The position numbers and the translations under genes are program-made. 10,765 nt of DNA, from contig DAOVUK010000055.1 in assembly GCA_030632625.1 (NCBI GenBank), positions 1-10,765 of the forward strand. The letters are read 5' to 3'. This document shows positions 548 through 10,765 of this stretch, piece by piece (positions within the stretch are counted from its first letter, which is position 1; the number at the start of each line of letters is the position of its first letter). The stretch is from Gammaproteobacteria bacterium (GTDB lineage: Bacteria > Pseudomonadota > Gammaproteobacteria > GRL18). The notes under the pieces are model-generated. The model made no database searches and had not been told where the DNA came from. It saw only the letters and a program-made list of their open reading frames with translations.

Positions 548-1018
548 ATGAGCATTACCGCAACTCTTATAGGCCAGATAATAACGTTCGCGATATTAGT
601 CTGGTTCATAGGCAAATATCTCTGGGAGCCAATGACCCAGATGATGGATGATCGTAAGAAGCGTATTGCCGATGGTCTTGCAGCCGCTGAGCGTGGTATA
701 CACGAGCAGCAGCTGGGCGAACACAAAGCGATTCAACATATTAAAGAAGCAAAAGAGCAGGCGGCTGAAATCCTTGCTCAGGCGCAGAAGCGTGGTGCAG
801 ATATAATAGAAGACGCTAAAGGTGACGCAAAGGCTGAAGGTGAACGTTTAATTACAGCAGCAAATGCTGAGATTGAACAAGAAGTCAATCGTGCAAAAGA
901 AACACTGCGAGAACATGTGGTTGATATCACTATTGCAGCGGCAGGCAAGATCGTCAAGAAAGAGATCGATGCCAAAGCACATGGCGAATTGTTAAAAGAT
1001 GTCGTAGGTCAGATATGA
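548..1018 (+). CDS. atpF: ATP synthase Fo subunit b (peripheral stalk)
   Basis: Subunit b dimerises to form the stator stalk that links the membrane a subunit to delta and alpha in F1. The protein is 156 residues, the same length as E. coli AtpF. It has one N-terminal membrane helix (about 5-26), the conserved tether Arg36 in MDDRKKRIADGL, and a long charged, Ala-rich coiled coil (about 40-135) ending in the delta-binding C-terminus. A Shine-Dalgarno AGGA at 536-539 lies eight bases before the ATG. The stop is 22 bases before atpH, consistent with co-transcription. No unusual residues were noted. Confidence 0.97.
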   Translation: MSITATLIGQIITFAILVWFIGKYLWEPMTQMMDDRKKRIADGLAAAERGIHEQQLGEHKAIQHIKEAKEQAAEILAQAQKRGADIIEDAKGDAKAEGERLITAANAEIEQEVNRAKETLREHVVDITIAAAGKIVKKEIDAKAHGELLKDVVGQI

Positions 1019-1040
1019 TCGACAAGATGAGGACACAATA

Positions 1041-1577
1041 ATGGCTGAAACAAGCACATTAGCAAGACCTTATGCTCAGGCAATCTTCAATCTGGCACAT
1101 GCCAATAACACTCTTAAAACATGGTCTGATACACTGGCTCTTCTTGCAGAAGTGGTAGCCGATGAAGCCATGATCGAGATAATCAATAATCCTGATGTCA
1201 GCAGTGAGCAGACAGTTTCACTGATTGTTGATATCTGTAAGGATAACCTGGATGAGCAGGGAATTAACTTTGTCAGACTGGCGGCTGAAAATGACCGTCT
1301 GCAAGTGATTCCGCATATTGCACAAAGCTTTGAAGCCATGTGTGCTGAAGAAGGCGGCAGTATCGAAGCTCAGGTTATTTCAGCTTATGCTGTTAATGCG
1401 ACACAAAAGAAAAGCATTACAGAGGCACTGAAAAAGAAACTCGGTCGTGAAGTGACTATTACCAGCAAAACAGACAAATCATTGTTAGGTGGTGTCATTA
1501 TTCGGGCAGGCGATATTGTAATTGATGGTTCAGTGAAAACACAACTGGAAAAAATTACCCATTCCCTGCTTAGCTAG
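1041..1577 (+). CDS. atpH: ATP synthase F1 subunit delta
   Basis: Delta caps the alpha3beta3 hexamer and joins it to the C-terminus of subunit b (OSCP in mitochondria). The 178-residue protein is close to E. coli (177). Its N-terminal helical domain opens with STLARPYAQAIF, the family signature, and spans roughly residues 1-105. A C-terminal alpha/beta domain follows, containing the conserved segment LGGVIIRAGDIVIDGSVKTQL near residues 149-169. A Shine-Dalgarno GAGGA at 1029-1033 is seven bases from the start. It is followed after 66 bases by atpA. Nothing odd was seen. Confidence 0.97.
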   Translation: MAETSTLARPYAQAIFNLAHANNTLKTWSDTLALLAEVVADEAMIEIINNPDVSSEQTVSLIVDICKDNLDEQGINFVRLAAENDRLQVIPHIAQSFEAMCAEEGGSIEAQVISAYAVNATQKKSITEALKKKLGREVTITSKTDKSLLGGVIIRAGDIVIDGSVKTQLEKITHSLLS

Positions 1578-1643
1578 CCCTGAACATTTTATATAAAAGA
1601 TAAGAAAGAATGCTAAGTGATTCAGATCACAGAGGATTAAAAA

Positions 1644-3185
1644 ATGCAGTTAAATCCATCAGAAATCAGTGACTTAATAAAAAGTCGTATTGAAAGTTTT
1701 GATGCTAAAACCGAAGCAACTACCGAAGGGACTGTGGTCAGTCTAAAAGATGGTATTGCCTTGATTCACGGTTTAAGTGATGTTATGTCAGGGGAAATGA
1801 TTGAATTTCCCGGAAATACTTTTGGTATGACTCTTAACCTGGAGCGCGATTCAGTAGGTGCCGTTATCCTTGGGGACTACAAGCATATCACTGAGGGTGA
1901 TAAGGTTAAATGTACCGGTCGAATTTTAGAAGTACCGGTTGGTGATGCTCTGCTGGGTCGTGTGGTTGACTCACTGGGCAACCCTATTGACGGCAAAGGC
2001 CCGATTGAGACGAAAGAAACTTCGCCCATTGAAAAAATTGCACCGGGCGTTATCGCGCGTCAATCCGTTGATCAGCCAGTCCAGACCGGTTTGAAGTCAA
2101 TTGATGCCATGGTGCCGATTGGTCGCGGCCAGCGTGAATTAATTATCGGTGACCGCCAGACTGGTAAAACAGCGGTTGCAATTGATGCCATTATCAACCA
2201 GAAAGACTCCGGTATTAAATGTATCTATGTTGCTGTGGGTCAAAAAGCATCCAGCATTGCTGCCGTTGTTCGTAAACTGGAAGAATTCGGCGCAATGGAA
2301 AATACTATTGTTGTCGCAGCGACCGCATCCGATGCCGCAGCCATGCAATATATTGCACCTTATTCAGGTTGTGCCATGGGTGAAGTTTTCCGTGATCGTG
2401 GTGAAGATGCGTTGATTGTTTATGATGATTTGACCAAACAGGCATGGGCTTATCGTCAGGTATCATTACTTTTACGCCGTCCACCAGGCCGTGAAGCTTA
2501 TCCGGGTGATGTATTCTATCTGCACTCACGTTTACTTGAGCGTGCATCACGTGTCAATGCTGACTTTGTTGAACAGGCAACTGGCGGCAAAGTCACCGGT
2601 AAAACCGGTTCTTTAACGGCTTTACCCATTATTGAAACACAGGCTGGCGATGTCTCTGCATTCGTACCAACCAACGTAATTTCAATTACTGATGGTCAGA
2701 TTTTCCTGGAAACTGATTTGTTTAATGCCGGTATTCGTCCGGCGATTAATGCCGGTTTATCCGTTTCCCGAGTCGGTGGTGCAGCACAAACCAAGATCAT
2801 TAAGAAACTCGGTGGTGGTATACGTCTTGATTTGGCTCAGTATCGTGAACTGGCCGCCTTTGCGCAGTTTGCATCAGACTTAGATGAAATCACCAGAAAT
2901 CAGATTGAACGCGGTAAGCGTGTCACCGAATTAATGAAACAGGTCCAATACTCACCCTATAGTGTTGCTCAGATGGCGATTTCGTTATTTGCGGCGAACA
3001 AAGGCTATCTGGATGATATTGATGTCTCTAAGATTGTTGATTTTGAAAATGCATTGCAGGATTACATGAAGTCCAATGAAGCGGAATTTATGAAGCAGAT
3101 CAATGATACCGGTGATTATAATGATGATATCGATAACAAAATACATGAAGCCATTAAAAACTTCAAATCAAATAGTAGCTGGTAA
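1644..3185 (+). CDS. atpA: ATP synthase F1 subunit alpha
   Basis: Alpha forms the non-catalytic nucleotide-binding half of the hexamer and contributes an arginine finger to the catalytic sites on beta. At 513 residues it equals the E. coli protein. Order of elements: N-terminal delta-binding helix (1-20), beta-barrel (about 25-95), nucleotide-binding domain with Walker A GDRQTGKT at 169-176, the Walker B region ALIVYDD at 256-262, the arginine finger Arg376 in [11 protein letters not shown], and the C-terminal helical domain. The start is fixed by AGAGGA at 1631-1636 and the conserved MQLNPSEIS opening. It ends 15 bases before atpG. All expected residues are present. Confidence 0.99.
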
Positions 3186-3200
3186 TAGGAGGCTCTGAGT

Positions 3201-4118
3201 ATGGCAAGCGGAAAAGAGATTCGTAGTCAGATCAGCAGTATTAAAAATACACAGAAAATCACCAGAGCAATGGAGATGGTGGCTGCCAGTAAAATGCGTA
3301 AAGCACAGGATCGCATGTCTGCATCCCGTCCTTATGCGCAAAAGATGATTGAAGTTGTCCGTCATCTTGCACTGGCGCATACTGAATACAGGCATACTTA
3401 TCTGATTGATCGTGAAGCAAAACGTGTTGGTTATATTGTAATATCTTCAGATAAGGGCTTATGTGGCGGATTGAACACAAATGTGTTTAAAGAAACTGTC
3501 GCAAGCATGAAAGCCTGGCATGAGCAGGAAGTTGAAATAGATGTCTGTGTCATTGGTACAAAAGCCAGTGGGTTTTTTAAGCGTATTGGCGGCAACGTCG
3601 TTTCACATGCAGAACATCTGGGTGATGAACCCAGTGTTGAGAGTTTAATCGGCAGTGTCAAAGTCATGCTCGATGCCTACCATGAAGGTCGCATCGATCG
3701 CCTGTTTGTCGTATTTAATAAATTTGTCAACACCATGACTCAACAGCCCATCGTTGCACAAATGCTGCCGATAGGTGCCAGTCAGACTGAGGCAAATCAA
3801 AGCAGAGAAGCAAGATACCACGAAGTTTCAGAAGAGGATTCCGGTGCGCATATGACGCATCATTGGGATTACTTATATGAGCCGGATGCTGAAGAAGTCA
3901 TTGATGCACTCCTAATGCGTTATATCGAATCACTGGTTTATCAGGGTGTGGTTGAAAATATGGCCTGTGAAATGGCTGCCAGGATGGTTGCAATGAAGAG
4001 TGCTACCGATAATGCTGGTGACATGATTGATGATTTGCAGTTGGTCTATAACAAGAGCAGACAAGCAGCTATTACACAAGAACTTTCAGAAATTGTTGCA
4101 GGTGCGGCGGCGGTATAA
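3201..4118 (+). CDS. atpG: ATP synthase F1 subunit gamma (rotor shaft), with insertion
   Basis: Gamma is the central shaft whose rotation drives conformational change in the beta subunits. The N-terminal helix ([19 protein letters not shown], 16-34) and C-terminal helix ([20 protein letters not shown], 279-298) form the coiled coil. The Rossmann-like middle domain includes the conserved [11 protein letters not shown] at 82-92. The protein has 305 residues against 287 in E. coli. The 18 extra residues all fall in one place: between LP (189-190) and WDYLYEPD (222-229) there are 31 residues where E. coli has 13. The insert is polar and acidic, ending in HMTHH. A strong TAGGAGG at 3186-3192 precedes the start. 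A 151-base gap separates it from atpD. Confidence 0.98.
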
Positions 4119-4124
4119 AGTCTG

Positions 4125-4171
4125 CTGCTTTATAGAAAGTTTAAGCAAACAAATTATGGTCTTTAAAGCAG
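4125..4171 (+). repeat. Hairpin in the atpG-atpD gap
   Basis: Arms at 4125-4136 (CTGCTTTATAGA) and 4160-4171 (TCTTTAAAGCAG) are complementary over 12 bases with one mismatch, enclosing a 23-base loop. There is no following T-run, so it is not a typical terminator. It lies just after the atpG stop in the longest internal gap of the operon (4119-4269). The gap is otherwise A/T-rich and ends in the atpD Shine-Dalgarno AAGGA at 4258-4262. An mRNA-processing or stability role before the highly expressed beta gene is a guess. Confidence 0.5.
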
Positions 4172-4257
4172 AGATAAAAGCCTGCTGAATATTTATGCTA
4201 ATTTAGTTAAGCTCTTATATATATGCTCTTGGTTAGCTCTGTATAAGTAGAGAATAA

Positions 4258-8222: not shown

Positions 8223-10049
8223 ATGTGTGGGATTGTCGGGGCTATTGCAGAACGTAATGTTGAAGCCATTTTAATTGAAGGTTTAAGACGGCTGGAATAT
8301 CGGGGCTATGATTCTGCAGGACTGGCCATTCAGGACTATGATAAAACCATTAATCGCCAGAGAGCACTGGGAAAAGTATCAGAACTGGCCGGTGAATTAG
8401 AAAAAACGCCTCTCAAAGGTGCTATTGGTGTGGCCCATACACGATGGGCCACACATGGCGAACCAGCCAAACATAATGCTCACCCCCATATGTGTGAAGA
8501 AAACATAGCACTTGTACATAATGGTATTATTGAAAACTATGAAACAATTAAAGCAGATCTGCAAGCTGAAGGCGTCAGTTTTTACTCGCAAACAGATAGT
8601 GAGACGATTGTTCATCTGATAGGGAAATATAAAAAGCAGGGTAAAAATTTACTGCAGGCTGTGCTGCAAACGCTTAAAGAACTGGATGGTGCTTATGCAC
8701 TGGGAGTCATCGATAATAGCGAAGAACGAATCATTGCCGCCAGAAGCGGCAGTCCCTTAGTCATCGGTATTGGCATTGGTGAAAATTTTATTGCCTCAGA
8801 TGTTTCAGCACTGCTGCCGGTGACACAGCAATTTATCTTCCTCGAAGAAGGTGATGTGGCTGACATAAGTCGTGATTCAATTGTTATTTATGATGCCGCA
8901 GGCGAAGTCGTTGAACGACCCATGCGCAAAAGTGAGATCAGTGCGGATGCCGTGGAACGTGGTGAATACCGCCACTACATGCTCAAAGAAATTTATGAAC
9001 AACCCAAAGCTGTTGCTGATACTTTAGAGGGACGCATTGATAATGAGCATGTCTTCACTAATGCATTTGGTTTTGAAGCTGAGACAATTTTTAAAGAAAT
9101 AGAGTCGGTGTATATCATTGCCTGCGGCACCAGTTTCCATGCAGGGCTGGTTGCAAAATACTGGTTTGAAGGGATTATTGGCATCCCCTGCATGATTGAA
9201 GTGGCCAGTGAGTTTAGATACAGAAAAGCAGTTTATAGTGAAAAAACACTGATAGTCACCATTTCACAATCCGGAGAAACAGCCGATACATTAGCCGCAT
9301 TAAGAGAAGCAAAAAAACAGGGAGCAAAACATTCCTTAGTGATCTGTAATGTGCCGGAAAGTTCACTGGTAAGAGAGTCAAATCTTTCCTTTATGACCCA
9401 TGCCGGTCCAGAGATTGGTGTTGCATCCACTAAAGCCTTCACTACCCAATTAACCGCACTGCTAATGCTTGTCGTCTGTGTGGCTAAGGAAAAAGGTAAT
9501 AATAAACTGGAAAAAGAAGCAGTTGAAGCACTGAGAAAGTTACCCGGACAAATAGAAAATGCACTGCAACTCGATAAAGAAATTGAAGAACTTTCAAAAG
9601 ATTTTTCAGATAAGCAGCACACCCTGTTTCTGGGTAGAGGAACACAATATCCTATAGCAATGGAGGGCGCATTAAAATTAAAGGAAATATCTTACATTCA
9701 TGCCGAAGCTTATCCGGCAGGAGAATTAAAACACGGACCACTGGCACTGGTTGATGCAGATATGCCTGTTGTTGCTGTCGCCCCCAATAATGAACTGATC
9801 GGTAAACTTAAATCAAATTTACAGGAAGTCAAAACACGAGGCGGAAAACTCTATGTTTTTGCTGATACCCATGCTGATCTTGAACAGGAAGAATCGATCA
9901 AAGTGATAAAAGTCGGTGAAATCGATTCACTGATAGCACCTATGGTCTTTACCATCCCCCTGCAATTACTTGCCTATCACGTTGCTATAATAAAAGGCAC
10001 TGATGTTGATCAACCCAGGAATCTTGCAAAAAGTGTCACTGTCGAATAG
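8223..10049 (+). CDS. glmS: Glutamine-fructose-6-phosphate aminotransferase (isomerizing)
   Basis: GlmS makes glucosamine-6-phosphate from fructose-6-phosphate and glutamine, the first committed step to UDP-GlcNAc. The 608-residue protein (E. coli 609) has an N-terminal glutaminase domain with Cys2 as the nucleophile after Met removal, HTRWATHG at 72-79, HNGIIENY at 99-106 and QTDSET at 123-128. Two sugar-isomerase (SIS) domains follow: CGTSFHAG at 301-308, SQSGETADT at 349-357, [10 protein letters not shown] with Glu488 at 481-490, and His504 in KHGP. The invariant C-terminus [13 protein letters not shown] is intact. AAAGGA at 8211-8216 precedes the ATG; the 48-base gap from glmU suggests one transcript. 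I see no glmS riboswitch. Its 3' end is the likely TnsD recognition site for the element beginning at 10074. Confidence 0.99.
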
Positions 10050-10073
10050 CGGTGATCTCACCATATTCATTGT
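10010..10073 (+). other. attTn7-type target site at the glmS 3' end
   Basis: The last codons of glmS ([17 protein letters not shown]) are the conserved sequence that TnsD of Tn7 reads, and Tn7 inserts about 25 bp after the stop. Here the element terminus begins 25 bp after the stop at 10049. By the Tn7 rule of 5-bp target duplication, ATTGT at 10069-10073 should recur beyond the far end of the element, outside the window. Confidence 0.75.
10051..10062 (+). terminator. Weak hairpin after glmS
   Basis: GGTG and CACC pair around a four-base loop directly after the glmS stop, followed by a broken T-rich stretch. It is at best a weak terminator. The original glmS terminator may have been displaced by the insertion at 10074. 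Confidence 0.25.
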
Positions 10074-10083
10074 TGTGGGCGAA

Positions 10084-10123
10084 TAATAAGGTTTCATGCT
10101 ATGTAATAAAGTATCATACTAGA
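10084..10123 (+). repeat. Two tandem TnsB-binding-like repeats
   Basis: Repeat 1 (10084-10103) and repeat 2 (10104-10123) match at 15 of 20 positions and share TAATAA, then GT or GG, then TCAT, then CTA. Repeat 2, AATAAAGT followed by ACTAGA, matches the Tn7 left-end motif I remember (AATAAAGT...AACTAGA) at about 16 of 19 positions. Repeat 1 begins two bases after the TGTGGGCG terminus, as the outermost TnsB site does in Tn7. A degenerate third copy may lie at 10133-10149, but it needs a one-base gap to align. Confidence 0.72.
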
Positions 10124-10205
10124 AAATGCCAAAATGACGGTTTTTGACTTATTGCAGTAATTTTAGCTACTTCTCTGTTTTTGAAATTAGCTCAATAGCT
10201 AACAT

Positions 10206-10293
10206 TTGTCACGCCGCAATTAACTGGCAGTTTAAAGCAAAGCGACGAAGAAGCGGCGCTTTAAACTATCCGGGTTGAATTGCATTGTTGGAT
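10206..10293 (-). other. Integron attC-like recombination site
   Basis: Read on minus: ATCCAAC (10293-10287) fits the R'' consensus RYYYAAC. GCAATTCAAC (10283-10274) pairs with GTTAATTGC (10224-10216) as L''/L' with a single extra base. The 10-bp inner stem is 10267-10258 with 10238-10229, exact, and a 19-base variable loop caps it. The unpaired base is G10277 on the plus strand, the strand opposite the gene, which is where attC sites carry the extrahelical G used by IntI. The length of 88 bases is within the attC range. The outer R' box, expected at 10212-10206, reads GTGACAA instead of GTTRRRY, so it is degenerate; GTTAGCT at 10203-10197 is a less symmetric alternative. The stop codon of the minus-strand gene abuts R'' exactly, as in gene cassettes. 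Confidence 0.75.
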
Positions 10294-10605
10294 TTATCGC
10301 CAATAGTTATTTGCAATAGCAATGGTTTTAAACTCTATTGCAACCAGCTCCGCTGCATACATTAATAATTGAGGGTTATCTTGGTATTTTTTTCTAACGG
10401 CTCGCTTGATTTCTGGATCTCGTTGAATAGTTCCTATGGTTTTTCTCACTATTTTAATAGCAAGCATACGCCCTTCAAGAGGCGTTTTGGTAATCAGGCT
10501 TGGCATGTAGTCTTCAGTGTTTTTCTCTTCTGATGCATGTGCAGCCTGGATAAGCCCAAGTGATAAGAAAGATAACAACAACACTGCTTTTAATAAATTA
10601 TTCAT
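10294..10605 (-). CDS. Small exported basic protein, probable integron cassette gene, unknown function
   Basis: I do not recognise this 103-residue protein. Residues 1-24 form a clear signal peptide: MNNLLK, the hydrophobic AVLLLSFLSLGLI, and cleavage after AHA (24). The mature part of about 79 residues has no cysteine, a basic middle (IKIVRKTIGTIQRDPEIKRA, then VRKKY, at about 52-75) and a helical, Ala-rich end finishing in NNYWR. It may act in the periplasm or outside; nothing points to an enzyme. I chose the ATG at 10605 because GGAGAA (10616-10611) lies five bases upstream and the signal peptide then starts normally; an in-frame ATG at 10668 would add 21 residues without a clear ribosome site. 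Its TAA touches the attC-like site, and it points toward glmS. Many integron cassettes encode small secreted proteins of unknown role. Confidence 0.75.
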   Translation of the reverse strand: MNNLLKAVLLLSFLSLGLIQAAHASEEKNTEDYMPSLITKTPLEGRMLAIKIVRKTIGTIQRDPEIKRAVRKKYQDNPQLLMYAAELVAIEFKTIAIANNYWR

Positions 10606-10694
10606 GATAATTCTCCAATAGCCTCTAGTGATTAAAAGCCAGATTTTGCAGAGACAAACAAAAATCATAACAGTAGTTAACTAATTTTCGGTTA

Positions 10695-10723
10695 ATTATG
10701 ACTCAATTTTAGTTATTGCTCAA
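10695..10723 (-). promoter_or_regulatory. Possible promoter of the cassette gene
   Basis: On minus, TTGAGC (10723-10718) and CATAAT (10700-10695) are 17 bases apart, a fair sigma70-like pair. The start would be near 10688, giving a leader of about 83 bases. A second option is the extended -10 TGTTATGAT (about 10673-10665), which lacks a good -35. Cassettes usually lack promoters, so a resident promoter would matter if the cassette is isolated. Confidence 0.4.
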
Positions 10724-10765
10724 GAATGAAGTTTTCAGTTTATAATTCCTTTCTGGATAACACAC

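Follow-up and report, generated by a model that had tools for sequence, protein, structure and literature searches.

Does the AT-rich intergenic DNA past glmS in a gammaproteobacterium hold a true end of a Tn7-like transposon, and does an element with its cargo still lie behind it? The window, the whole stretch of 10,765 nucleotides that was analysed, is the entire contig C266 of G000, a genome bin of 533 contigs that is 81.6% complete; the genes ahead of glmS we take, by their sequences, to be ATP synthase genes and glmU. GlmS is 84–92% identical to the GlmS of ten same-genus relatives aligned across the full 608 residues. A preliminary description of this DNA had placed a transposon end 25 bp after the glmS stop and had the element continue beyond position 10765, and the two claims fare differently. 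The features that bear on the first are these.

8223–10049, forward strand: glmS, an open reading frame of 608 amino acids
10050–10073, forward strand: spacer of 24 nt from the glmS stop to the transposon end, read from the sequence
10074–10081, forward strand: octamer TGTGGGCG at the terminus, where the right end begins, identical to the octamers of Tn7, L102/G017 and L099
10083–10100, forward strand: putative TnsB-type site 1, ATAATAAGGTTTCATGCT, with 14 of 18 consensus bases
10103–10120, forward strand: putative TnsB-type site 2, GTAATAAAGTATCATACT, matching the consensus at all 18 bases, at 20-bp spacing from site 1

In the parts of one account that deal with the attachment site (PMC2918618), the 3′ coding end of glmS is the expected TnsD-binding part of attTn7, Tn7 inserts about 20 bp past the gene with 5-bp duplications, and constructs use 90 bp of the Tn7 right end. 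The window has 24 nt between stop and end, or the 25 of the preliminary description if one counts to the octamer's first base, and ATTGT (10069–10073), the last five spacer bases, would represent one of the two target-duplication copies. By itself the octamer is poor evidence, since it turns up somewhere in 31 of 200 shuffled versions of the window. Site 2 has a single, exact match in the window at up to three mismatches, and such a match arises in 1 of 200 shuffles. Site 1 is not outstanding alone—its weight-matrix score of 9.6 lies below 11.9, the 95th percentile of best scores in shuffled 9.6-kb sequence—and counts because it stands at a set position, with the octamer before it and site 2 behind; the matrix was trained on loci retrieved with a pattern written from the same end family, so that its scores are no independent test. 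The motif as a whole (TGT with two spaced sites behind it), a pattern composed after we had viewed the window sequence and its relatives, matches once in the window and in none of the 200 shuffles. No site resembling the TnsB type occupies the expected third-site position (from 10123), an Rfam scan of the window gave no family at gathering score, and comparison of the end with plasmids gave short matches in 29 records at E values up to 1.

When GTDB species genomes were scanned for a TGT with two spaced sites of the window's end family, 26 loci emerged, two of which (L102 and L107) are apparently the same contigs as G017 and G005 and hence also figure among the relatives' genomes. In every one of the 22 glmS-linked loci the gene lies 24–25 nt upstream; the fetched stretches of the other four contain no glmS. 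Three sites stand behind the terminus in 22 of the 26 related ends, against the two 18-bp sites here. A TnsA homologue is present in the fetched stretch of 19 loci, its match starting, with the furthest-reaching query, some 113–141 bp inside the end in 17 and 1.1–1.45 kb inside in two (L089 and L101). That the end is a chance resemblance—a thought invited by the frequency of the octamer in shuffles and by a site 1 that alone does no better than chance over 9.6 kb—has next to no probability given the absence of the whole motif from the shuffles and its recurrence at the same place past glmS in 22 of 26 loci, and is refuted because two relatives, G004 and G005, carry matching duplications. Judged by its sequence, 10074–10120 is confirmed as a true right end of a Tn7-like transposon at the glmS attachment site.

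The end resembles that of Tn7 in E. coli in its octamer, its 24-nt spacing, the TnsB-type sites directly behind and a right end that lies beside glmS; in E. coli strain THO-010, Tn7 opens with this octamer 24 nt past the glmS stop, and its TnsA gene comes next. It differs in that its sites are AATAAAGTATCATACT-like whereas those of Tn7 are AATAAAGTCTTAAACT-like, in having two sites where the relevant part of one source gives Tn7 four overlapping right-end sites (PMC11406308), and in having no tns genes. The preliminary description was therefore right about the shared octamer, about two repeats resembling TnsB sites behind it, and in calling the end a relative of Tn7 rather than Tn7 itself, the repeats differing internally. 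Also close is the element at L102 (metagenome-assembled genome Gammaproteobacteria bacterium Gamma1-221), with the same octamer, near-identical sites and the same place past glmS; by contrast, a TnsA gene (PF08722) lies behind its three sites, and the contig ends inside it. Among complete E. coli genomes, 100 of 114 records matching the right end and tnsA cover at least 80%. At least three short E. coli records hold exactly 199 bp of the end with no feature, two of them named MG1655, and these three we infer to be engineered mini-Tn7.

The genus itself holds the end in several states. The 3′ flank of glmS is readable in 12 of its 16 genomes (G008 and G009 are cut short there, G006 and G011 are without a full glmS), and seven of the 12 have the right end: G000, G002, G003, G004, G005, G014 and G015. 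The remaining five (G001, G007, G010, G012 and G013) show no site at up to four mismatches in the first 120 nt past glmS. The element of G004, 20.7 kb long, has three right and three left sites with AATTA on both sides; its proteins match models of TnsA, the Mu-type transposase C-terminal domain (TnsB), TniB/AAA (TnsC), TnsD/TniQ and TnsE, and its cargo includes matches to the SspB, SspC and SspD models. It shares site class and place past glmS with the window end, from which it is set apart by its second end, its duplication, its tns matches and its cargo matches. In G005 (L072, G005:C35; the same as L107) two ends lie 2.66 kb apart between ATTCA duplications in an element that adjoins glmS and within which no tns homologue was found; like the window end it is without tns genes, and unlike it, it has a left end and matching duplications. 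Its cargo consists of three small open reading frames, one of them weakly uracil-DNA glycosylase-like, below the Pfam cut-off.

G003 keeps tnsA, tnsB and a shorter tnsC in a truncated element, with no left end within 6.8 kb. A left-end-like triple behind TGTAGACGAG on another G003 contig, C133 (L082, 5450–5595), does not qualify as partner to the end at glmS of G003, its flank being GTTAT where GCATT is needed. In G002 a single site is left, and the TnsA match covers no more than residues 1–111 of 284. G014 has one site and, across the 60 kb examined, one weak reverse match, 1.7 kb in and with four mismatches, beside which no terminus fits. The genus thus ranges from a complete element (G004) through a truncated one (G003) and a partial tnsA (G002) to bare ends (G014 and G000), states whose order of decay we infer.

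The preliminary description let the transposon end stand or fall with a second terminus, and had proposed to look past 10765 for an inverted terminus flanked by ATTGT and for tns homologues. The sequence past the window continues on contig C268 of the same bin, which overlaps the end of the window by exactly 141 bp. C268 has no left-end site at up to four mismatches, in a scan that does detect the left ends of G004 and G005; its best weight-matrix score, 1.8, falls below the shuffled mean of 3.9, and a looser look at the joined 10.2-kb flank past glmS gave no left end either. ATTGT lies beside ACA, at up to one mismatch, in two places, 153 and 2095 nt past the stop, both without sites. Nor is there a tns homologue on C268, or any match to TnsA, TnsB or TnsD in the 81.6%-complete G000 genome. 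The same queries matched elsewhere (TnsA in G003 and G004; TnsB in G003 and G036; TnsD in G036, G033 and G035), though one TnsA-family search of G000 also matched none of 14 control genomes. These absences carry limited weight because the bin is incomplete and because G015 and G017, with tnsA visible at glmS, have no TnsB match in either genome. A bin-wide search for the second end with TGTGGGCGNNNAATAA is uninformative alone, since it gave 76 places at up to two mismatches against 99 for the reversed control. An intact element is refuted by the missing second terminus; the end itself is real, and relatives carry the duplications that go with it.

One further Tn7-like end in G000, on contig C102 (L081, 82–108), has one good site behind TGTAGTCGAG and faces a stretch in which no open reading frame of 90 amino acids is listed up to position 800; C102 has no tns homologue. 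As partner of the window end it was rejected, its flank being CTGAG where ACAAT is needed.

In place of more element, C268 returns to chromosome shared with relatives, within about 2.3–4.2 kb. That the chromosome resumes there follows from five genes in the far part of C268 that are collinear with, and 65–88% identical to, genes that follow glmS in G004; of these five, three also have partners past glmS in G014 (63–76% identical) and two in G007 (49–73%). What lies between the transposon end and this chromosome begins inside the window.

10200–10292, reverse strand: imperfect long hairpin (an inverted repeat) directly 3′ of the next gene
10294–10668, reverse strand: gene for a hexameric tyrosine-coordinated heme protein (HTHP; PF11534, E = 1.4e-24)
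10668–10765, forward strand: repeat of about 100 bp dispersed in the genus, whose edge coincides with the contig end

The true start of the HTHP gene is likely near 10608; most homologues among the matches listed have 102–107 amino acids. Present in only 1 of the 16 genus genomes and yet with relatives outside the genus up to 94% identical among the matches listed (120 of 341), the gene was on that account probably acquired, and it is probable cargo; the 15 plasmid records that it matches are all below 60% identity. The adjoining hairpin is by eye attC-like on one side, where ATCCAAC precedes an arm with a single unpaired base, and unlike attC at the other boundary. Its DNA fold is not significant (z = −1.61; 16 of 200 shuffles fold equally well or better), and its sequence has a 78% match over 68 nt on contig C17 of G005. 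With this hairpin 3′ of it, the HTHP gene may have come in next to the transposon end as an integron-type cassette. On C268, between the HTHP gene and the chromosome, there follow a fragment that we take to be RhuM-like (35% identical to a G005 protein, with no Pfam match) and a frameshifted gene, AlbA_2 plus HATPase_c_4, split into two frames. A 73% identical relative of the latter likewise lies directly past glmS in G012 (L079, G012:C222), which has no transposon end; it is preceded there by a frame that by eye resembles the C-terminus of a type I restriction specificity subunit. Three more small open reading frames precede the first collinear gene, in a stretch whose DNA matches other places in relatives. 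A Pfam scan of eight open reading frames past glmS (the single one of the window, plus 7 of the 14 listed for C268) found no Cas family.

The dispersed repeat bears on a different account of the missing end, in which a complete or tns-less element is present and its interior has been lost from view where the join of C266 and C268 skips it. The repeat ends at a TTCCTTTCTGGATAACACAC-like sequence and has copies 73–87% identical in relatives (seven matches in G005, three each in G007 and G014). The contig break sits at its boundary, the bin is incomplete, and the two-ended element at glmS in G005 provides a tns-less precedent in the same genus; moreover, two contigs that stop at a common 141-mer imply what is probably a branch in the assembly, and an interior between two repeat copies would look alike. 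However, the 141-mer is limited in G000 to C266 and C268, with no further copy of the repeat at E values up to 0.001, the whole bin is without a TnsA, TnsB or TnsD match, and the gene order past the join agrees with that of G004. Because the join falls in a dispersed repeat we keep a skipped interior as an alternative, unlikely as we consider it.

We therefore favour, with good though not full confidence, the reading that the window end, the right end of a glmS-targeting Tn7-like transposon, is a remnant stub of a decayed element. An ancestral element would have been placed by TnsABC and TnsD 24 nt past glmS, with its right end nearest the gene, a step supported by the agreement of position, end architecture and two-ended relatives. 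Later deletions would then have taken the tns genes and the left end, so that TnsB sites 1 and 2 and part of the cargo remained ahead of the chromosome. The decay of the end is modest, site 2 still being perfect. Such a stub cannot move by itself, and what lies past 10765 is most likely not an element with cargo worth chasing.

Ends of this kind recur outside the genus. Vibrio sp. MEBiC08052 (G030) and Lacimicrobium (G031) match at up to two mismatches nowhere in the genome but at two right-end sites, and Paraglaciecola (G032) adds to its two right-end sites one lone, distant match; all three ends lie past glmS. G030 also has one weak reverse site (four mismatches), 8.2 kb in and not adjoined by a terminus, that may be a decayed left end; 2.1–8.2 kb past its glmS (L125) we noted genes that by eye are DNA-methylase-like, ATPase-like and Vsr-like, then others. 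A 3.68-kb element in Shewanella sp. PS-2 (L098; L124, G033:C2, about 570–4250), with no glmS within the fetched stretch, shares with the window a two-site right end without tns genes, from which it differs in having a left end and TTAAG duplications. A TnsA homologue is missing from four of four two-site ends but from only 3 of 22 three-site ends (Fisher p = 0.002, in a post hoc comparison uncorrected for kinship, on a small sample whose two-site ends were read 4.5–5.5 kb inward and some up to 16 kb). Two-site right ends might then constitute a class of their own, either parts of cargo-only, tns-less units that relatives move in trans or bare ends that shield glmS by TnsB-dependent target immunity; we hold such a class, of which the window end would be a fifth member, to be rather improbable.

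Could the end instead have been kept by selection, a solo right end at attTn7 binding incoming TnsB and so conferring target immunity? Target immunity of Tn7 has been described (PMC11406308), and the relevant part of one report has the TnsB sites of an inserted element inhibit the insertion of another Tn7 close by (PMC4321384). Four genomes (G014, G030, G031 and G032) have a right end at glmS with no clear left end, and none of the four has a TnsB match. Yet searching by right ends in part predisposes to finding bare ones, the weak reverse matches of G014 and G030 may be decayed left ends, and the window end has a drifted site 1 and no site 3. Immunity can also fail, as indicated by three tnsB matches within about 30 kb in G036 and by mini-Tn7 insertions 27 kb apart, as given in part of the same report (PMC4321384). 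Selection for immunity accordingly strikes us as very unlikely to explain the window end, which we continue to read as the stub of a decayed element. The three tnsB matches, on the glmS contig of Rheinheimera baltica (G036:C11, 3911–33879), suggest stacked Tn7-like elements. Two elements with ends in Aliidiomarina (G034) were not counted as proven insertions because their flanks differ (AGTTC/AGATC and ACACG/ACACT).

A large survey, in its portion on how elements were delimited, scanned around tnsB (PMC8649781), so bare ends and tns-less elements probably went uncounted there; bare ends are likewise not described in the portions of two other papers that bear on the subject (PMC10293859, PMC12671221). 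The window end itself is an ordinary, tidy example of known mobile DNA. Around it, a gammaproteobacterial genus documents a class of Tn7-like end at glmS from complete element to bare end, and at the same site it also holds an element with two ends and no tns genes. It is the recurrence of bare and tns-less ends that deserves a systematic look. If it were true that bare ends confer immunity, they would amount to host-side protection built from transposon scrap.
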